In this document: positions 3,970-17,862 of the stretch, piece after piece
How positions within the stretch are numbered: position 1 is the first letter of the stretch
Layout of the letters: the number at the start of each line of letters is the position of its first letter
Virus record (IMG/VR): IMGVR_UViG_3300025695_000088
Coordinates: 1 to 25,965 of that record
Strand: one strand, 5' to 3'
From: a virus
Length of the DNA stretch: 25,965 nucleotides
The notes under the pieces: generated by a model
What the model was told of the DNA's origin: nothing
Databases searched by the model: none
Seen by the model: the letters and a program-made list of their open reading frames with translations, nothing else
Program-made: the position numbers and the translations under genes

Positions 3970-5787
3970 TTAAATTGAAGCACCTGATACAATATTTCTC
4001 TCTAGGCTCTGAGCAGAGGTAACATCACTAGAAACAACGTAGGCCTTTAAAGGTTCATTGCTTTTACCTTGAATAGTCTCAGCTAATTGATTAGTGCCTG
4101 AGGTTCCTACTACATTAAATTGAGGGGCTTGTGATGTAACAGGTGCAGATCCTCTTACTCCGGATATATTTGGACTACTCACACTTATACCTCCTGGTAC
4201 TTTTGTTGAGGATATTCTTTTTACATTTGCGACACCTGCTGCAATAGCTGCCCCTGCTGCTGCAAAACCTAACGCTGGTCCTATTATTGGTATTCCTGCT
4301 AGCGACTTATAAGAGTCTGTTGCAGATTGATATGTACTAATAGTCGCAGATGCAATAGCCGCTGCTTTACCTGCCGCACTTTGCTCTCCTAATATTTTAG
4401 ATAGATTATTAAAACCATCTGTCGAGATCTCTGCTTTTTTCTGCTCAGTCATTTCTGCCCAAGCTATCTCGTTTTCATTTTTTTTATCTGTTATTTTATT
4501 TAAAGCATCTGTTTTTGATTTCTCTAAATTAATAACTGATAGACCTGCATCTTTTGCTAATTGAATTAATTTATCATAATGCTCTGTTACTTTAATAATC
4601 TCTAAGGCTCTCTTTTCGTCCTCACTTACTGCCTCTGCTTCTCTTATTTGATTTTTAAGATCAGCTAGTGCTTTAGCGTCTGCAATTTCTTTATCTTGTG
4701 CGGCTTTATCTTTTGCATCTTGTTCATCTTGCTTTGCTTTCTCTGCTGCATCTACTTGTCCTTGTATTGTGTTTAATTCTCTCTGTAATTGTCTTGCTAC
4801 ATTTGCCCTCGCAGCAATTTGATTGTTTACTGCAGCAACCGCTTCTGCCTCTAAGGTTAGATTCTCTTTGTTTGTTCTACTAAATGTATTCTCTAAAATC
4901 TGAGCATCTCTTCTCAATTCTAAGTACTTAGTCTGATCGTCTAGTAATTGATCCTCTAATTCCTGTGCATCTAATAAAGCCTGCTTTCTCTCCTCAGCAC
5001 TAAATTGATCCTCTTGTCTAGCTTTTAATCTAAGTAAGGCCACCTCAGATTCTAGCTTAGATCTTTTAACTATTAAATCTCTCTCTATCTTATCTGCTTT
5101 AGCCCTCATATCAGCAACCTTAGCTGCTGCCTGTGCCTCTTTTACATTCTCTGCAATAAATTCTTTTGTTTTTTCTATTGCAGTCTCTATTTTACCGCTT
5201 AGATTATCAACTCCTAGAGCAACTTTTGCAACGGCATTTCCTGCAACCTTACCTGCTTCTGAAAATTCTCCTTTAAATAATAAATTTATAGCCTTTCCTA
5301 ACTGAGGTATTAATTCAGTAAGACCCTCAAATCTATTTGATATATTCTCTTTGATTAAATTACCAAAGTCTTTTAAGGCTTGTTTAGGATTCTCAAATGC
5401 CCATATTAATTTTTCTCCTAAGTCTGCTAGTAAATCTACAAGGTTGCCTGTTAAAGCACCAATTACCCCTAGTATCTTTGCGAACTTATTTTGCCCCTCT
5501 TCACTTGAATTAAATGCAGCTACGAGAGATGTTACACCTATTACTAAAGCACCTATTCCTGTTGCTATGATAGCACCTCTCAGGGTCTTAAAACCTGTTG
5601 TTACACCTTTTACAGTACTTATAAGTCCTTTAAATTTAGTTATAGCACCACCTGTTGCCTGATCTGCAGCAGAAGTAACACCATCTAAATTGCTAGATGT
5701 AGTCTTTAAATCTTTGTTTAGATCTTGTACATTCCTTTGAGCCTGACCTGTTTGTACGTCTAATATGACTACTCTTTTCTCTGCCAT
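3970..5787 (-). CDS. Tail tape measure protein
   Basis: A 605-aa protein with the usual make-up. Hydrophobic segments lie at about 73-92 (IIATGIGALVIGVTSLVAAF) and 105-124 (ILGVIGALTGNLVDLL). A long charged coiled coil runs from about 200 to 450, and a third hydrophobic stretch follows (about 498-523, GIPIIGPALGFAAAGAAIAA). The C-terminus is Ser/Gly/Pro-rich (VPGGISVSSPNISGVRG). It sets tail length and is ejected with DNA. At 1.5 Å per residue the helix would span roughly 90 nm. No sheath gene is visible, which favours a siphovirus tail, though the window may not hold all tail genes. Confidence 0.88.
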   Translation of the reverse strand: MAEKRVVILDVQTGQAQRNVQDLNKDLKTTSSNLDGVTSAADQATGGAITKFKGLISTVKGVTTGFKTLRGAIIATGIGALVIGVTSLVAAFNSSEEGQNKFAKILGVIGALTGNLVDLLADLGEKLIWAFENPKQALKDFGNLIKENISNRFEGLTELIPQLGKAINLLFKGEFSEAGKVAGNAVAKVALGVDNLSGKIETAIEKTKEFIAENVKEAQAAAKVADMRAKADKIERDLIVKRSKLESEVALLRLKARQEDQFSAEERKQALLDAQELEDQLLDDQTKYLELRRDAQILENTFSRTNKENLTLEAEAVAAVNNQIAARANVARQLQRELNTIQGQVDAAEKAKQDEQDAKDKAAQDKEIADAKALADLKNQIREAEAVSEDEKRALEIIKVTEHYDKLIQLAKDAGLSVINLEKSKTDALNKITDKKNENEIAWAEMTEQKKAEISTDGFNNLSKILGEQSAAGKAAAIASATISTYQSATDSYKSLAGIPIIGPALGFAAAGAAIAAGVANVKRISSTKVPGGISVSSPNISGVRGSAPVTSQAPQFNVVGTSGTNQLAETIQGKSNEPLKAYVVSSDVTSAQSLERNIVSGASI

Positions 5788-9321: not shown

Positions 9322-12015
9322 TTATCCGCAGCTTAAATTTAAACCAACATTTAATGCGTTCATTTGTTCTGCCATTAAGTCTCTATAATAAGTAACAGGT
9401 CTATCCCTTTCTATGTTATAAACTATTTTTAACCTACCTGCATCAAACACATCTTTTAAGCCTGTTGCTCCGCCTTCTGTTTGTAATTTATTTAATAACC
9501 CTAAAAGATAATTATATCTCCTTATTCTGTCTTCAAATGTTTGGCTTGGATCAACAACATATATAATTATATATAATTTTGTCAAGTCTTGTTGTGATAA
9601 ATCATATCTAAAATTAGCAATTCCTGCCTCCCAATTTCTAATTTCAGTAGAAGTTGATAAATTGTTATAAGAAGTACCGGAACTATCAATAAAGAAATGC
9701 CTAACTGAAGTTGCATAATAATCTGTTCTTGCACACAAAAATTCTAACCATTTATTTTTACTTGCAACCGCAATAGTTCCACCACCTACATAAGTAAATG
9801 CCCTGCCATTATAAAAGGATTGCATACACTCGGTCAAACTGCCATCGTTATAAACATTTATAGTTTGTTCTATTTCTCTAAAAGAGTTGTAAACTTCTCC
9901 AAAATCAGCATTTCTACTTTCAAAATACCCCTGCAATATAACATAACTGTTAGGTTCAAATGTAGAGTCTTCCAATGGCGGACACTCTGTTACCGTTACA
10001 GTATATTCGTCATTTAATAATGGACTGTAAACTTCTAACTGTACAAGGTTAGGGTATGCTAATGTTTTGTCAAAAGTTAATGTAGCGTTCTTTGTTGAGG
10101 TTGCTCCTGTATTTATATCGCCACCACTTACACCAGCTGCTAATAATTGTGCATCATATTCGTTTGAACCAATATAGCCTGTATCAACTTGTTCTGTTCC
10201 ATTCCATTTTAAAACAAATTTACAAGGCACATCGTCACCGCTTACTGTTATTGTAAAATCACCAACTCCACTTGAATACACATTATATGTTTTTCGCCCA
10301 GCATCTGCTCCTTGAATATGTGTACCTCCACAACTCAATGAAACTTGTTCTGAAGTTGTTGGTAGTTTATAACATTCATTTACTGTTCCTGTTTTAACGT
10401 ATGTTACAACACCATTACTAAAAGAGTATATTAAAGGAAACACAACCGCACCATCTTTACAAACAGAAGTTAAAGCATTTGTTGCCGTACTTATTGAAGC
10501 GTAATGACCATTTAAAGAAGTGTTTTTTGTTCCGTTAGCATTATACACTTGGTGACCTACTGCCATTGGTACTGTTAATGCTTTTACAGTATTATATTGT
10601 ACCGCATTTGCACAAGGTAAACACTTAAATTCTGTGTCTAATTGGCTCACTGTTTTACCTACTAAATAATTGTTTTCATAAAAAGTAAGTAAATTAACAT
10701 CTTTTAATTGACCTTGTACAGTTGAAGCCTCACAAGTTGCACAATCACTAAACACCTCAGACCAATCCTTAGTGTTAGTTGTAAATACTTCATTGTTTAC
10801 TGTATAGCAATTATCGTCTCCTGAGAATTTAACAACCTTGTTAGTCATATCTACTTCAGACCTAAAGTAAGTAACAGTAGTACCACCGCAAATAGTAGCT
10901 TTCCAATATTTATATGGGTCATCACTTGGACAAGTAGGACAAACTTCTGTGGCATTGTAAACAGTACCACCACTTGTTGTTTGTGATAATATACTAAAAC
11001 AAGTATCGTCTTGCCCGCTTGCTTTCCACAATCTTGGTTGCATATAAGCCAACGTGTTTATAGAAGCTATTTTTATAACCGCCCCTGTTCCGTCACATTT
11101 TTGAGCATAAAAATAATTATAAGGATCATTTGCATTTGCACAAGCCGTACAATCTGTATATATGTTTGTCCAATCAATACCACTAACAGAACCCACACTT
11201 GTAACTTGATAGCAGGTAGTGCCATAACCATCTAAAGTAACTGAGCTACCTATTGCTAAAGTTATTTTTGATTTGAAATCTACTGTTGCACTTCCTCCAC
11301 ATTCAGTAGCCGTATAATAAGTATAAGGGTCAATAGGTGTGCAAGATGAACAGCTTTGGTAAAATGAAGTTATATCATTGGTGCTTGTCTCTTCAGTTTC
11401 TCCATCTAAAACAAAGCATTTATCTCCTTGACCACTTACATTAATTACAGGTAAACTTGACGGCAATGTTCCCTCATATCTTACAACAACGCTAGAAGTT
11501 CCATCACAGCTATTTGCGTCATAGTATTTATAATCTATTCCTGTAGCACAATGGTCGCAATTATTAAATAAAGTAACTACTGTATTTGTATTACTGCTTC
11601 CGCTTCCTGTTATAGTATAGCAATCTGCTGAATAATTTTCTGCTTTTATAACTTGACCAATCTCTAGTGTATCTATGGACCTTACATCTATTGGAGAGCC
11701 TCCTGAACATAATTCTGCTGAATAATAAATATAATCAGGTACTCCATTACATTTATCGCAGGTATCGTAAATAAAAGTAACATCTGTTTCATTGGTATCA
11801 GTTAATGTTCCTGTAACCTCAAAACAGGTGTCTCCATATCCGTTTACCTTTATTCCCTGTCCGTTTGTTAGTTCGGTTGTACTTCTAATACTTACTGTTG
11901 TAGATCCTCCGCACTCAGTAGCAGTATGATAAAAATATGGGTCAGGTAATATAACTGGCTCAATTTCTTGGTCTCCTGATATGTAAAATGGGCTTCGTAC
12001 GTTTATTTTTCTCAT
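9322..12015 (-). CDS. Large cysteine-repeat structural protein, probable tail fibre or tip
   Basis: An 897-aa protein. Residues 27-428 are six repeats of about 65 residues (see the repeat entry). Residues 430-560 are a mixed region with scattered cysteines, including a CLPC. Residues about 575-690 look like a beta sandwich (YNVYSSGVGDFTITVSGDD, then YTVTVTECPP). Residues 695-897 form a separate C-terminal domain with aromatic and charged patches (SRNADFGEVYNSFREIEQT; DRPVTYYRDLMAEQMNALNV). No signal peptide or membrane span. Repeated beta domains and its place among tail genes suggest surface attachment to the host. No enzyme motif was seen. The family is not recognised for sure. Confidence 0.55.
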   Translation of the reverse strand: MRKINVRSPFYISGDQEIEPVILPDPYFYHTATECGGSTTVSIRSTTELTNGQGIKVNGYGDTCFEVTGTLTDTNETDVTFIYDTCDKCNGVPDYIYYSAELCSGGSPIDVRSIDTLEIGQVIKAENYSADCYTITGSGSSNTNTVVTLFNNCDHCATGIDYKYYDANSCDGTSSVVVRYEGTLPSSLPVINVSGQGDKCFVLDGETEETSTNDITSFYQSCSSCTPIDPYTYYTATECGGSATVDFKSKITLAIGSSVTLDGYGTTCYQVTSVGSVSGIDWTNIYTDCTACANANDPYNYFYAQKCDGTGAVIKIASINTLAYMQPRLWKASGQDDTCFSILSQTTSGGTVYNATEVCPTCPSDDPYKYWKATICGGTTVTYFRSEVDMTNKVVKFSGDDNCYTVNNEVFTTNTKDWSEVFSDCATCEASTVQGQLKDVNLLTFYENNYLVGKTVSQLDTEFKCLPCANAVQYNTVKALTVPMAVGHQVYNANGTKNTSLNGHYASISTATNALTSVCKDGAVVFPLIYSFSNGVVTYVKTGTVNECYKLPTTSEQVSLSCGGTHIQGADAGRKTYNVYSSGVGDFTITVSGDDVPCKFVLKWNGTEQVDTGYIGSNEYDAQLLAAGVSGGDINTGATSTKNATLTFDKTLAYPNLVQLEVYSPLLNDEYTVTVTECPPLEDSTFEPNSYVILQGYFESRNADFGEVYNSFREIEQTINVYNDGSLTECMQSFYNGRAFTYVGGGTIAVASKNKWLEFLCARTDYYATSVRHFFIDSSGTSYNNLSTSTEIRNWEAGIANFRYDLSQQDLTKLYIIIYVVDPSQTFEDRIRRYNYLLGLLNKLQTEGGATGLKDVFDAGRLKIVYNIERDRPVTYYRDLMAEQMNALNVGLNLSCG
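10732..11937 (-). repeat. Six tandem cysteine-rich protein repeats
   Basis: Within the 897-aa protein the unit runs roughly Y-Y-x-A-x2-C-(G/D)G, then a strand with RS/KS, then G-(Y/Q)G-D-x-C-(Y/F), then T-x-(V/I)-x6-C-x2-C. Copies lie at residues 27-89, 94-156, 161-225, 230-292, 298-362 and 367-428. Each has four cysteines, one near the start, one in the middle and a closing CxxC, so each may hold a metal ion or two disulfides. The copies have diverged, so duplication is old and recombination has not homogenised them. Confidence 0.75.
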
Positions 12016-12019
12016 TTTT

Positions 12020-12529
12020 CTATGTTGTAAAATCTAGTAAATCGTCAATATCTAATCCAAATCTTTTTATTAAATCATCAGGTAAATTCTCAAATGCTTT
12101 CTCAAATGGCTTAGTAAAGAATAATGATGGTTTAATTCCTTTCTCATATATACTCTTCTGTAATATAAAGCCTATTGTTCTATAATTACCTTTCTTATAT
12201 CTCCCTTTCTCATCTCTTAGTCTAATCCTCCTGGCCTTAGCCCAATCTGCTAAAGGTTGCATAGGTGGTTTTTTATTTGTGTAACTAAAAGGTGTATTAT
12301 ATTTCTTTTTTATTCCTGATACCCCCTGATCAACAAACTGACCATAGTCTGCCATATAGAACTCTAGAGAAAATGAGTTAGGATTAACCTGTAAATCGTA
12401 CCCTAGACTTCCATAGAGATCGCTAGAGACATTCTTTTTGCTTTTTGATAGATTAGTCCTAGATTGCTGAATAACGTACTTAGCGAACTTGTTAAGGCTT
12501 TCCTTTGTCTTTTGTAATTTAGCAGACAT
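12020..12529 (-). CDS. HK97 gp10-like head-tail joining protein
   Basis: About 169 aa from the ATG at 12529 (MSAKLQKTKESLNKFAKYVI). An ATG at 12538 would add three residues and widen the overlap with the previous gene. MADYGQFVDQGVSGIKKKY and the late GIKPSLFFTKPFEKAF follow the HK97-gp10/minor tail joining pattern (YGxFVDxGxxG ... P.xF..PAFE). Such proteins link the neck to the tail. A basic middle (ARRIRLRDEKGRYKKGNYRT) is unusual but not unknown. It ends 4 nt before the large cysteine-repeat gene. Confidence 0.65.
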   Translation of the reverse strand: MSAKLQKTKESLNKFAKYVIQQSRTNLSKSKKNVSSDLYGSLGYDLQVNPNSFSLEFYMADYGQFVDQGVSGIKKKYNTPFSYTNKKPPMQPLADWAKARRIRLRDEKGRYKKGNYRTIGFILQKSIYEKGIKPSLFFTKPFEKAFENLPDDLIKRFGLDIDDLLDFTT

Positions 12530-12989
12530 TAATATCATTTTGAATTATTACATCAAACGTAGCGGTCCATCCTGCAACCTGATTCTCAAATCTATCCATA
12601 AAAGGCTCTAGAGTAACATCTCCTAAGACCTGATATAAGTCTCTATGTAATTGACCAATTCTTAGTTTCTGTACTAACTTATTTAAAACTGCTAATTGAG
12701 TATTCAATACATCCTGCTCATTATCATTCCCTAAGAATATATCTGTAACTACATCCTTTGATTGATCTACAATATCCATTGCTAGAATACTTATATTAAA
12801 TCCTAGTGTATTCTCTGAGGATGTTACATTATTTACAATCATATGAGACAAAGGGAATATAGTCTGCTTATTAAGATCCACCTCTGTAATATCTCCTGTC
12901 GTAACTGTATTAACGTTTAGATCAGATAACAAAGTGTCCTTTATCTTTTGAGTAAGTAAATAAAACCCTCTTATTCCTGTATTGCTCAT
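12519..12989 (-). CDS. Putative tail completion / head-tail joining protein
   Basis: A 156-aa protein starting MSNTGIRGFYLLTQKIKDTL. Its ATG overlaps the stop of the -1 frame extension. The alpha/beta pattern, with a central HMIVNNVTSSENTLGFNISI strand pair and a late VAGWTATFDVIIQND strand, suits a tail-terminator or connector ring protein. The neighbour downstream is gp10-like, also a joining protein. The role is inferred from position and size. I do not see a diagnostic motif. Confidence 0.5.
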   Translation of the reverse strand: MSNTGIRGFYLLTQKIKDTLLSDLNVNTVTTGDITEVDLNKQTIFPLSHMIVNNVTSSENTLGFNISILAMDIVDQSKDVVTDIFLGNDNEQDVLNTQLAVLNKLVQKLRIGQLHRDLYQVLGDVTLEPFMDRFENQVAGWTATFDVIIQNDINVC

Positions 12990-13240
12990 TATAGTTTGTT
13001 TTTAATCTTTCTAGATTCTAATTCGTTTTTCTCCTTTTCAAATGCTAACATCATAAAACACTCGTGGACATTTAATTTAGTGATATTCTCAAATCGTCTA
13101 ATATCGCCCTGAGCGAGTGCGTAAATTGATTGATACCAACCCCATTTTGCTCCGAACTGAGATATTGCACTAAATTGCTCTCCTGATTCTCCTGCAAATA
13201 ACTCATCATAGCTTGCGATAAGTCGATCCCTAAATGGTAA
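12989..13240 (-). CDS. -1 frame extension of the putative tail assembly chaperone
   Basis: If ribosomes slip -1 on T-TTT-TTT (13246-13240), reading resumes with TTA at 13240 and continues for 83 sense codons to TAA at 12991-12989. The product begins LPFRDRLIASYDELFAGESG and contains KWGWYQSIYALAQGDI and FENITKLNVHE, followed by FEKEKNELESRK, and looks like a genuine aromatic-rich folded domain. The stop overlaps the next ATG as TAATG, the standard junction here. Upstream the -1 frame is closed by TAG at 13258-13256, so only the narrow window at the T9 run allows entry. The fusion would be 244 aa. A one-base sequencing error in the run would give the same picture. Confidence 0.72.
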   Translation of the reverse strand, partial: LPFRDRLIASYDELFAGESGEQFSAISQFGAKWGWYQSIYALAQGDIRRFENITKLNVHECFMMLAFEKEKNELESRKIKNKL

Positions 13241-13722
13241 AAAAAAAGTATAGAACTAATTACTGCATCTAAAGGCATATCTTTTAATGTCTCTCCATCT
13301 CCTGCTTCATACTCTTTAATTGAGTATTTCTCTCCGTACTTCTGATCAATAGGTCTATATAGAACGGCCATTGCTCTGTGCATATTTTCCCAATCTCCTA
13401 AGAACGCATCTAGATCTACATACTCACCTAAGCTAATGTCATCGAGTTTTGGTATAAATCCATACTCTACTCCATTAATTTTAAAATGTCTCCTTAGATT
13501 AGGTTTCTCATTAAACATACCTATCAGGATCTCACATATCGCATTCACATCTGAAAACTTCATTTTCATAGTATCTGCTAAAGTAACATTGCAGAATATC
13601 TCAATCATTTTAGAGGCCAGGAATTTCTCATCTGTAACCTCTTCTGAGATCTTTAAATACTTTTGGTATTGCTCTAATGTTATCTCTGATAATGTATTGG
13701 GTATGGTTATTTCTAGTTTCAT
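13072..13722 (-). CDS. Putative tail assembly chaperone, frame-0 product
   Basis: I take the start MKLEITIPNTLSEITLEQYQ at 13722 and not the ATG at 13788, which would place the terminator inside the gene. The unshifted product is 216 aa. Residues 1-161 look like a normal folded protein (QKYLKISEEVTDEKF; FGFIPKLDDISLGEY-like segment with the residues GVEYGFIPKL). After the T9 run at 13247-13239 the frame-0 tail is less convincing, and it stops 82 nt short of the next gene in a genome that otherwise wastes little space. A -1 shift would replace the last 55 residues by 83 others. The lambda G/GT pair uses the same principle. The chaperone role comes from position before tail genes and from the frameshift, not from sequence identity. 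Confidence 0.62.
   Translation of the reverse strand: MKLEITIPNTLSEITLEQYQKYLKISEEVTDEKFLASKMIEIFCNVTLADTMKMKFSDVNAICEILIGMFNEKPNLRRHFKINGVEYGFIPKLDDISLGEYVDLDAFLGDWENMHRAMAVLYRPIDQKYGEKYSIKEYEAGDGETLKDMPLDAVISSILFFYHLGIDLSQAMMSYLQENQESNLVQYLSSEQNGVGINQFTHSLRAILDDLRISLN
13239..13247 (-). promoter_or_regulatory. Slippery T9 run for -1 frameshifting
   Basis: The minus strand reads ATA CTT TTT TTT TAC in frame 0, so it holds the canonical heptamer T_TTT_TTT at 13246-13240. Both tRNAs can re-pair after a -1 slip. Polymerase slippage on nine Ts is an alternative way to the same product. No downstream pseudoknot was worked out. Confidence 0.7.
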
Positions 13723-14819: not shown

Positions 14820-15974
14820 CTATCTTATAGCGTACTTACCATAGTTAGGTTTTGTAAGTTTGTTTACTATTGAATATCTCAAACTATCTAGAGCGTGATT
14901 ATAAGCATCTATTGGTTTGTTAGTAAGCTGACCATTCTTGTCCTCTATGTATTTATAGTTTCTCAACTCTTTGATTGTATTAATACTATCCTCTGTAACG
15001 AATAATTTATACCTCCTAATCATATCAATACCGATATTAATAGATCCTTTAAAAGTGGGCTTTATATTCCATCCCATTCGATGTATCTCCTCTATTGATT
15101 TCGGTTCTGCACTATCAGCGAATATCTCATCTCTTCTGTCAAGGCCTAACCTCTTAAATTCATTTGCTATATCTTGATTAGTCATTCCTGTACGATATAT
15201 ATGCTCTTTTACGTACATATTATCTCCCATCGTAAATGTCTCCACTAAACTCGTAGGGTCGTTAGTAAATCCAAAATCTAATCCGTATGATATTCTCTTA
15301 GCCTCCTGAGGGACCTCTTTAATAGTTTGAAAGTTATATATTAAACTCCTAGACTGTCCTCTCTCTCCTAGTCCGTAAACTTTCCAATAGTTCTCGTCAA
15401 TATCTTTTAATCTCTCAATCTCTTCCTTTATTACATCACTCAGAAACGGATTGTCTCTATATGTTGTTTGGTGAAATTCTACATCCTTTCTTGTTAGTAC
15501 TTGGTCATATATCCAATGGAACTCATCAGATGGGTTATAATCTAGTATTACTTTCTCAGTAGTCCTGAATATTAACTGCTGCCAATCCTCAAAATTAAGT
15601 TCGTTAGCTTCATTAATAAACAATAGATCTCTTTTCCTACCTCTAATCTTTTGAGGTTCATCTAGGCTGATAAATTCAATTCTATTGCCATTCAGATAAT
15701 ACTCGTTAGCACTCTTGCTATGATACATCTCATTATAAATACCATATCCTTTAATAATATCAAAAAAATCCCTCATAACCGTTCCTCTAACGGCAGGGAA
15801 TGTCTTTCTGCATATAGTAATAGTTTTATCAGTACATCTATTGCAATAATCAAATATAATCCATAATAGTATGTTATAGGTTTTCCCTGATCTAGTTCCT
15901 CCTTGTTCTACTATTATCTTTTTATCAGATCTTGCTAAGTGTTTAAATACTTTATTCGTCGTAACTTCCCTCAT
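14820..15974 (-). CDS. terL: Terminase large subunit (Terminase_3 type)
   Basis: A 384-aa protein. Walker A QGGTRSGKT lies at 24-32, and Walker B with the catalytic glutamate, DLLFINE, at 116-122. YNPSDEFHW (146-154) matches the ATPase coupling segment. The nuclease domain is from about residue 228, with GLDFGFTND (D233), FADSAEPKSIEEI (D287) and DAYNHALDSLRY (D363) as the metal-binding acids. It pumps DNA into the prohead and cuts the concatemer. The length is near normal for the group. A 111-nt gap follows, holding a promoter for the small-ORF cassette. Confidence 0.95.
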   Translation of the reverse strand: MREVTTNKVFKHLARSDKKIIVEQGGTRSGKTYNILLWIIFDYCNRCTDKTITICRKTFPAVRGTVMRDFFDIIKGYGIYNEMYHSKSANEYYLNGNRIEFISLDEPQKIRGRKRDLLFINEANELNFEDWQQLIFRTTEKVILDYNPSDEFHWIYDQVLTRKDVEFHQTTYRDNPFLSDVIKEEIERLKDIDENYWKVYGLGERGQSRSLIYNFQTIKEVPQEAKRISYGLDFGFTNDPTSLVETFTMGDNMYVKEHIYRTGMTNQDIANEFKRLGLDRRDEIFADSAEPKSIEEIHRMGWNIKPTFKGSINIGIDMIRRYKLFVTEDSINTIKELRNYKYIEDKNGQLTNKPIDAYNHALDSLRYSIVNKLTKPNYGKYAIR

Positions 15975-16308: not shown

Positions 16309-17147
16309 TTTTTTAATGTTTCTCTTATAATCTTAGGTACTGCATTTTCCCAATTTATAGAATGATGCAACCTCTTATTAGTATCTCCCATAGGTTTAAT
16401 TATACAACACGATGGTGAGAATATAACAGTATAAAAAGACTTCACATACGTTCCATTATCTAAATAAATATCTGTCATACCTCCCTTATTCTTTTGAGTA
16501 GTCTTTTGAGTTAGAGATACCATTGGTATTGTTCCCATTAATAAACCTTTACTCTGTTCGTGTGTATATGTATTTACATCCTCATTAATTCTCCCTATAA
16601 ATTTAAATGGTCTCTTAGTACTACATATAAAACTATTCATACATTTTCGATATATAGTAGGCCTTTGTGCCATTCTATTGTTTTTACCTCCTATAAAATC
16701 ACCTCCCTGGGCCATAGATATAGTAGCGAAAGGTGTGTTTTTATAGAAATCCAATAAAGCTAAGAATACACTATCTAAGTTTTTAATTGTCTTAGGCTTT
16801 GTGTTATTCTCATTATATATACGATAGTTAAATCCGGTATAGTCATCATCCATTTGTATGAAGTACTCGTAGCCTTTTTCCTTTGCTATTTCAAAACACG
16901 CATTTCTTGCATAGACTATTGCCCTCCTATCTCCAAAATTATCTGCCTCATCAAATGTTTTAGATATTTTTTCTTTATTAAACATTTCTACATTGTCAAA
17001 ATTCTTATAATAATCATCGGACGTTTTATCCTCATTATCAATCACTATAATTATTTTTCCTGTGTAGCCGTGTTTTTTTAAAGTCTTAAACGTATGTACA
17101 TTGTTAGCCCTGCCGTGAGATAATATAAAAACTACAAAATTATCCAT
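16305..17147 (-). CDS. Glycosyltransferase, GT-A fold, TET-associated type (TAGT-like)
   Basis: A 280-aa protein. The N-terminus FVVFILSHGRANNVHTF carries the SHGRA box. YFIQMDDDYTGF (95-106) gives the DxD metal/sugar-nucleotide motif (D100-D102). GRINEDVNTY (185-194) fits the acidic catalytic site, and RLHHSINW (259-266) may be a late metal ligand. This is the layout of the TET-associated glycosyltransferases described from phages, which are thought to add sugars to modified pyrimidines in DNA. It overlaps ParB by 8 nt and the terminase small subunit by 4 nt. No TET/JBP dioxygenase or base hydroxymethylase gene is visible here, so the acceptor base, or even whether the target is DNA, is open. 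Confidence 0.72.
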   Translation of the reverse strand: MDNFVVFILSHGRANNVHTFKTLKKHGYTGKIIIVIDNEDKTSDDYYKNFDNVEMFNKEKISKTFDEADNFGDRRAIVYARNACFEIAKEKGYEYFIQMDDDYTGFNYRIYNENNTKPKTIKNLDSVFLALLDFYKNTPFATISMAQGGDFIGGKNNRMAQRPTIYRKCMNSFICSTKRPFKFIGRINEDVNTYTHEQSKGLLMGTIPMVSLTQKTTQKNKGGMTDIYLDNGTYVKSFYTVIFSPSCCIIKPMGDTNKRLHHSINWENAVPKIIRETLKK

Positions 17148-17862
17148 CTATTTCTGATAAATTTTCTATTGTATTGTAAACATTTACAAATCCTTTCTCT
17201 ATTGCTTTATCATAATCAATAATAACAAGTGCTGAATCCTCTATTAAGCATTGGCTCTCTTTATCACTATAAGCATAATAGTCTGCTATTTTAGAGTAAT
17301 TAAATTTTATATGTCTTGTTGCTGCAAGTCTCAAAAACTCTTTTATATCATCACTTATGTTTGACTTATTAATATCGTTTATAAGATCATTATATTTATT
17401 AATATCATAAAGTTCGTTTTCTTTTGGCTTTACTATTTTAGTCTCATATATTGGACTATCTATTTTCGTTGTATATTGATCATCATTTAAACTATTAAGT
17501 GCCGGCAAATCTACTCCCCAATCATTTAACTGTTGATGTTCCCATTCATTAGCTAGTACATCCCAATCCCACTCTCCAAAACCTGAATTGTCTTTAATAA
17601 GAAACTCCTTTTGTTGTTCCTCAGTAAGATCTTTTGCTTTTATTATATATACCTCCTCTAGGCCTGCTTGCTGACAAGCCTTGTATCTCATATTACCTCC
17701 AAGTATTACATTATCCTCATTTACTACGATAGGTCTAATCTCTAGCATCTCAGGAAATTCCTTTATACTTTTAACTAGCTTGTTGAATTTACTTTCTTTT
17801 ATAGATCTAGGATTTTCTGTATTTACTTTTATATCTCCTATTTTTACCTTGCTAATCTGCAT
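17140..17862 (-). CDS. ParB/sulfiredoxin-fold protein, probable DNA-modification partner
   Basis: A 240-aa protein. Residues 1-120 hold a ParB-type N-terminal domain: NPRSIKESKFNKLVKSI (17-33), RPIVVNEDNVILGGNMRYKA (43-62) with the GGNxR box, and then FGEWDWDVLANEW (95-107), a segment often seen in ParB domains joined to DNA methylases. Residues 139-240 form a second conserved-looking block (IYETKIVKPKENELYD; FLRLAATRHIKFNYSKIADY; SALVIIDYDKAIEKGFV). No methylase domain is present. It overlaps the glycosyltransferase gene by 8 nt. Proteins of this fold are frequent neighbours of phage base-modification enzymes, and some have nucleotide-binding or kinase activity. A part in DNA modification just before packaging is inferred. 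Confidence 0.72.
   Translation of the reverse strand: MQISKVKIGDIKVNTENPRSIKESKFNKLVKSIKEFPEMLEIRPIVVNEDNVILGGNMRYKACQQAGLEEVYIIKAKDLTEEQQKEFLIKDNSGFGEWDWDVLANEWEHQQLNDWGVDLPALNSLNDDQYTTKIDSPIYETKIVKPKENELYDINKYNDLINDINKSNISDDIKEFLRLAATRHIKFNYSKIADYYAYSDKESQCLIEDSALVIIDYDKAIEKGFVNVYNTIENLSEIDG

Follow-up and report, generated by a model that had tools for sequence, protein, structure and literature searches.

A conserved run of nine Ts and a probable -1 recoding site in a tail-module gene of Bacteroidota phages

Background

The heptamer T_TTT_TTT is a normal ribosomal slip site, and two-ended products of a -1 slip in the phage tail module are typical of tail assembly chaperones, the gene for which usually adjoins the tape measure gene. 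In the gpG/gpGT system of phage lambda, a late -1 slip in the first gene of the pair gives rise to a minor fusion product carrying a second domain, within the tail module (PMC5009743), and reporter assays of two tail chaperone genes from an HK97-like cluster measured frameshifting at 6-7% (PMC3711429). There are documented cases of slippage on nine As or Ts (PMC5009743), and in many bacteria selection against slippage starts to show at a run length of nine (PMC1088944). Homologous genes may furthermore use different slip mechanisms, as in the case of dnaX, which is subject to a ribosomal slip in E. coli and to transcriptional slippage on A9 in Thermus thermophilus (PMC1088944, PMC5009743). Among the papers searched on slippage in phage tail genes and on recoding in flavobacterial phages, none on the gene family described here was found.

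The gene under study lies in a 25,965-nucleotide stretch of viral DNA (IMG/VR record IMGVR_UViG_3300025695_000088, positions 1 to 25,965), referred to here in its full length as the window. The gene shares with lambda gpG/gpGT a late -1 slip site, a predicted minor fusion with a second domain and a place in the tail module, but no sequence or fold match to the lambda proteins was found, the slip would occur on a T9/T10 run, the frame-0 tail is long (55 residues) and constrained, and the gene follows that of the terminase large subunit (TerL), with five genes separating it from the tape measure gene. Recoding in a tail chaperone gene would also be shared with the HK97-like cluster, which however belongs to another family, the hosts here being Bacteroidota. 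The same gene, with a T9 site and a -1 tail, occurs in the Nonlabens phages P12024S and P12024L as gp38 and gp39, although these are annotated as two separate hypothetical proteins and have a short frame-0 tail, of about 27 residues counted from the start of the run. In both phages gp39 (L082 and L083, 6528-6695, plus strand) has been called from an internal ATG in the -1 frame and represents a shortened version of the frameshift tail.

The explanation that we favour, with a probability of about 0.82, is that the gene produces a G/GT-like pair of tail-assembly factors through -1 recoding at the T run. The main product would be a 216-aa frame-0 protein, and a minor product of 244 aa would join residues 1-161 to an 83-residue helical -1 tail. 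The slip would set the ratio of the two products, which by analogy with lambda gpG/gpGT may act as a tail assembly chaperone pair. Slips of this kind are known in phage tail genes.

Results and discussion

Organisation of the gene and its two reading frames

The features referred to in the text are as follows, by position in the window:

13072..13722, minus strand: frame-0 coding sequence, 216 aa, predicted G-like product; PHROG 32199 (unknown function), conserved throughout in relatives
13239..13247, minus strand: T9 run, the putative slip site; T9/T10 in 356/358 distinct relatives
13240..13246, minus strand: slippery heptamer T_TTT_TTT, in frame, in the codons of F160 and F161; also found in a distant prophage family as CA[T_TTT_TTT]
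12989..13240, minus strand: tail of 83 codons in the -1 frame, followed by TAA; joined to residues 1-161 it would give a 244-aa GT-like product
13072..13240, minus strand: overlap coding in both frames (0 and -1), from substitution counts and codon redraw tests
13256..13258, minus strand: TAG closing the -1 frame upstream of the slip site
12519..12989, minus strand: next gene, 156 aa, PHROG 30964; its ATG overlaps the -1 stop
14820..15974, minus strand: terminase large subunit, the upstream syntenic anchor
3970..5787, minus strand: 605-aa tape measure protein, further downstream in this gene series
559-44: tail-tube-like ORF beyond the tape measure gene, as read from the sequence by the analyst

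Codons 159-162 of the 216-aa gene read CTT TTT TTT TAC, with the shift point following residue 161 (FF), after which 55 residues remain in frame 0 and 83 in the -1 frame. The latter is open from the TAG at 13258-13256 to the TAA at 12991-12989, the final A of which is the first base of the next ATG, while the frame-0 stop is followed by a gap of 82 nt, with a doubly coding overlap of 169 nt between the two frames. An earlier note on this DNA had described the T9 run with its heptamer, the TAG and the TAA/ATG overlap, as well as the lengths of both tails and of the gap, and re-reading of the sequence confirmed every figure. No ATG, GTG or TTG occurs in the -1 frame of the window until nucleotide 669 of the gene, and the KWGWYQSIY region is thus unreachable by internal initiation. 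As there is no start codon before the last part of the -1 tail, most of this tail needs a change of frame.

The gene follows the terminase region and is separated from the tape measure gene by five genes, the first of which, encoding the 156-aa protein, may be tail-terminator-like on the basis of its position and size. Just upstream of the frameshift gene is a terminator-like hairpin of the intrinsic type with a T run (13810-13777, minus strand), and the frameshift gene may thus start its own transcript. Elsewhere in the window, an 897-aa protein (9322-12015, minus strand) contains in its N-terminal half about six tandem cysteine-rich units, each of roughly 80 residues, and has no family matches above threshold. 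Furthermore, a TET-associated glycosyltransferase (PF20691; 16305-17147, minus strand) adjoins a ParB-like ORF (17140-17862), a combination suggestive of DNA base modification; no partner enzyme was noticed.

Conservation of the run and of the second frame

Each of the 80 relatives returned by a scan of viral contigs has T9 or T10 at the corresponding position, and both frames are open wherever the contig is long enough. The full set for the window's relatives (clade 1) comprises 445 loci, 358 of them distinct and stemming from many assemblies; it was drawn from viral contigs, bacterial genomes, a DNA pattern scan, a scan that used the -1 tail and two divergent-tail scans. Among the distinct loci, 356 have T9 or T10 and a second ORF in the -1 frame. 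These include runs in phase 1 (NTT TTT TTT T; 300 T9 and 37 T10), phase 0 (TTT TTT TTT followed by T or CTN; 15 T10 and 3 T9) and phase 2 (NNT TTT TTT TTG; 1 T9). A second phase-2 T9 was found in a bacterial genome; the phase-2 cases belong to two separate lineages, both with TTG after FF. The two exceptions are a truncated contig and a single T8 run (L346, around 1500), the only one among the 358, in which both ORFs are otherwise intact and which is therefore considered a sequencing error or a rare indel. In over 400 clade 1 relatives the run is practically never shorter than nine, and the heptamer, with the X_XXY_YYZ form of canonical -1 sites, is in frame at the junction in the window and in every relative with a complete site. 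Frame 0 is open for at least 120 codons in 432/432 loci with at least 600 nt upstream.

The same picture emerged from a scan restricted to the N-domain, which precedes the slip site; the members that diverge most served as queries, and matches were mostly at ~30% identity: all 80 of the 80 returned loci have T9 (75 loci) or T10 (5 loci) and an open -1 frame. The cultured Nonlabens phages P12024S and P12024L and a prophage of Flagellimonas onchidii also carry this site. The programmed -1 event proposed in the earlier note is thus strongly supported by the comparative data. T-run lengths that would join the frames without a slip were sought and none was found among the 358 distinct loci, the T8 and the truncated locus aside. 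Nor do homologues keep the frame-0 tail alone; it is the -1 tail that is conserved more widely. The arrangement is best read as one by which two proteins with a common start and different ends would be made, in a flavobacteria phage and hundreds of its relatives. From these features we infer that slipping takes place at the run, at a rate that would determine how much of the longer protein is made.

Constraint on both frames in the overlap

Substitutions per site were counted by codon position in pairs of relatives at 70-80% identity. Upstream of the run the usual frame-0 pattern is seen (0.21, 0.11 and 0.50 at codon positions 1, 2 and 3), and beyond the frame-0 stop the -1 frame gives 0.20, 0.12 and 0.39 at its positions 1, 2 and 3. 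In the overlap the values are lowered at all codon positions (0.12, 0.14 and 0.18 by frame-0 position), with the third position of frame 0 falling to 0.18 from 0.50 upstream of the run. The second position of frame 0, which is the third position of the -1 frame, falls from 0.39 beyond the stop to 0.14 in the overlap, indicating that the frame-0 tail is constrained too. Both frames are thus constrained in the overlap within the window's clade, and the two-frame arrangement is retained in more than 400 loci.

For the redraw tests the residues of one frame were kept fixed, synonymous codons were redrawn and the other frame was checked for openness. With frame 0 fixed, the -1 frame was free of stop codons throughout the overlap in 1.3% of draws in the case of the window and in 0.5% on average over 130 distinct overlaps, and the reverse test gave 0.3% (window) and 0.8% (mean). 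Chance is excluded as the cause of the open second frame. An overlap of 169 nt that is constrained in both frames is unusual for such a gene.

A distant prophage family and other relatives

A weak match in one Bacteroidota genome led to a prophage gene present in 84/381 genomes of one order (clade 2). This gene is located directly after TerL and before the tail genes and the tape measure protein, in the same order as in the window. Profile-profile comparison with the window gene gave matches for frame 0 (E 5e-7), in an alignment that passes through the FF of the slip site, and for the -1 tail (E 1e-6). The clade 2 site is CAT TTT TTT ACC or similar, comprising T_TTT_TTT with seven Ts in most members and variable following codons, while more distant members have T9-T10 and some of them end frame 0 within a few codons. 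Codons starting with A are allowed right after the slip site, and the extra Ts are thus required by neither protein frame in general. Substitutions in the clade 2 overlap (0.10, 0.41 and 0.22 by frame-0 position) follow the -1 frame alone, and the frame-0 tail there looks dispensable.

A second copy in one bacterial genome (L573), a paralogue with the site CAC TTT TTT AAT, has a closed -1 frame and appears to have lost the slip. In Elizabethkingia phage TCUEAP1 (QGZ15838.1; L564, 2164-2706, plus strand) a related tail domain is likewise encoded directly after TerL, but in a single ORF for which no slip is needed. With the tail fused in frame in this phage, not every member of the wider family relies on a slip. 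A weak fold match in Flavobacterium phage 6H was set aside, as this phage has no convincing counterpart of the tail and only T6.

Candidate slip machinery

The earlier note had allowed for slippage by the polymerase as well as the ribosome, and the two are weighed here. In the first of two single-machine explanations, only the ribosome is involved, with the Phe-tRNAs slipping on U_UUU_UUU and the additional Ts serving the protein or raising the level of slipping. This accords with the in-frame heptamer at every complete site, with the reporter results for the two HK97-like genes (PMC3711429) and with CA[T_TTT_TTT] and its free next codon in most members of the distant family, where seven Ts suffice. 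It sits less easily with the clade 1 run, which is at least nine in all three phases. The codon after FF in clade 1 encodes Y, W, L, S, F or C, and the codons used share only the first T; in the few CTN cases, a first codon TTT compensates by bringing the run back to nine Ts. Furthermore, no RNA structure was found downstream of the run in 120 relatives (mean fold z +0.36), nor an Rfam match for a stimulator, a feature which is common but not obligatory in canonical -1 sites. We place the ribosome-only explanation at slightly below even odds.

In the second, RNA polymerase slippage alone would produce transcripts with one extra U, normal translation of which would give the 244-aa protein. A run of at least nine, the feature expected for transcriptional slippage, is kept in 356/358 clade 1 loci and in 80/80 loci of the N-domain scan but not in clade 2, and the lack of RNA structure also fits. 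Elsewhere in 526 kb of the relatives' coding sequence, only one T run of nine or more occurs vs about 20 expected, an avoidance of long A/T runs that grows with length in all three phases, the T7 phase that holds the bare heptamer being only halved; replicative instability of long runs would yield similar avoidance. The avoidance thus tracks length rather than phase, which also speaks against a purely ribosomal slip. The +1 frame, which other slip products would enter, closes early (in 85% of distinct loci it is open for no more than 8 codons, in 96% for no more than 12), although this follows in part from the TTAGG coded in both frames. Against the polymerase as sole agent, the T7 sites of the distant family are hard to explain, and the heptamer is always present too, any nine-T run necessarily containing it. 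Polymerase slippage alone appears unlikely.

The run of at least nine in all phases, the lack of RNA structure and the avoidance of long runs elsewhere together make RNA polymerase slippage a serious candidate, and these run-length facts favour a role for it, short of proof, as a longer U tract may also aid the ribosome. Whether slippage on T9, with one extra U, contributes to or even dominates the recoding in clade 1 we judge to be an evenly balanced question. A tentative extension, which we would put at rather less than even, is that clade 1 sets the ratio of its products by polymerase slippage on T9/T10 and the distant prophage gene by the ribosome on the bare T_TTT_TTT, with both C-termini functional in the slippage clade. 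Such a switch would parallel dnaX, which differs in being a cellular gene with a run of A, in which Thermus slippage shortens the product.

Identity and likely role of the proteins

The N-terminal part and the -1 tail were folded as separate chains. AlphaFold predicted a confident N-domain and a poorly ordered frame-0 tail for the frame-0 protein (mean pLDDT 79.5, pTM 0.75), and a helical -1 tail (mean pLDDT 75, pTM 0.50). No relative of the frame-0 model was found among solved structures (PDB) by sequence and fold search. Foldseek gave a single weak match with a chaperone annotation (E 0.49), and among predicted viral structures the good scores belong to uncharacterized proteins. Several viral proteins, each 226-267 aa long, resemble both parts within a single predicted structure, the -1 tail less closely than the N-domain. 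There was no match to a chaperone family in Pfam or PHROGs, the PHROG match being of unknown function. Two further candidates were rejected: PHROG 166 'tail protein', matched at E 0.03 (2e-4 for the best member), was dropped after control genomes were considered, as it also matches in the E. coli and Synechococcus controls and not in the T4, lambda, P12024S or Flagellimonas genomes, and a T4 gp26/gp51-like identity was discarded as these two proteins share PHROG 150, which is matched by no family member.

The label of tail assembly chaperone given in the earlier note is plausible from synteny and architecture, while the fold or sequence match that would accompany it was not found. A chaperone pair is the most likely role, judging from the place of the gene in the tail module and its predicted two-ended product, although the gene does not lie between the major tail protein and tape measure genes, where a chaperone gene would usually be expected. 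In both families and in TCUEAP1 the gene comes shortly after the terminase genes, and this position, together with the lack of a chaperone family match, would also suit a frameshifted structural or head-tail connector protein. However, the conserved gene order places it ahead of the tail genes and tape measure and a two-ended -1 product is typical of chaperones, and the connector alternative is considered improbable. That the gene is truly joined, with a T run that was misread in sequencing or assembly or that varies in phase at the DNA level, is a very remote prospect despite the error-prone nature of homopolymers and the single T8 locus: the -1 relation is constant in 356/358 loci, in two cultured Nonlabens phages and in the Flagellimonas prophage and is held by T9 and T10 variants alike, and long constrained double coding does not arise from errors. 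Error is thereby already refuted; phase variation would call for frequent alleles in which the frames are joined or broken, and only one was seen.

Implications

Recoding is little studied in Bacteroidota, and the G/GT-like reading would provide a function-level interpretation for a large, unannotated gene family of Bacteroidota phages (PHROG 32199 and 38404, 'unknown function'), the second product of which is cut short or missed by gene callers. The T7 and T9 families furthermore represent a natural comparison of ribosomal and transcriptional slippage in one phage gene.
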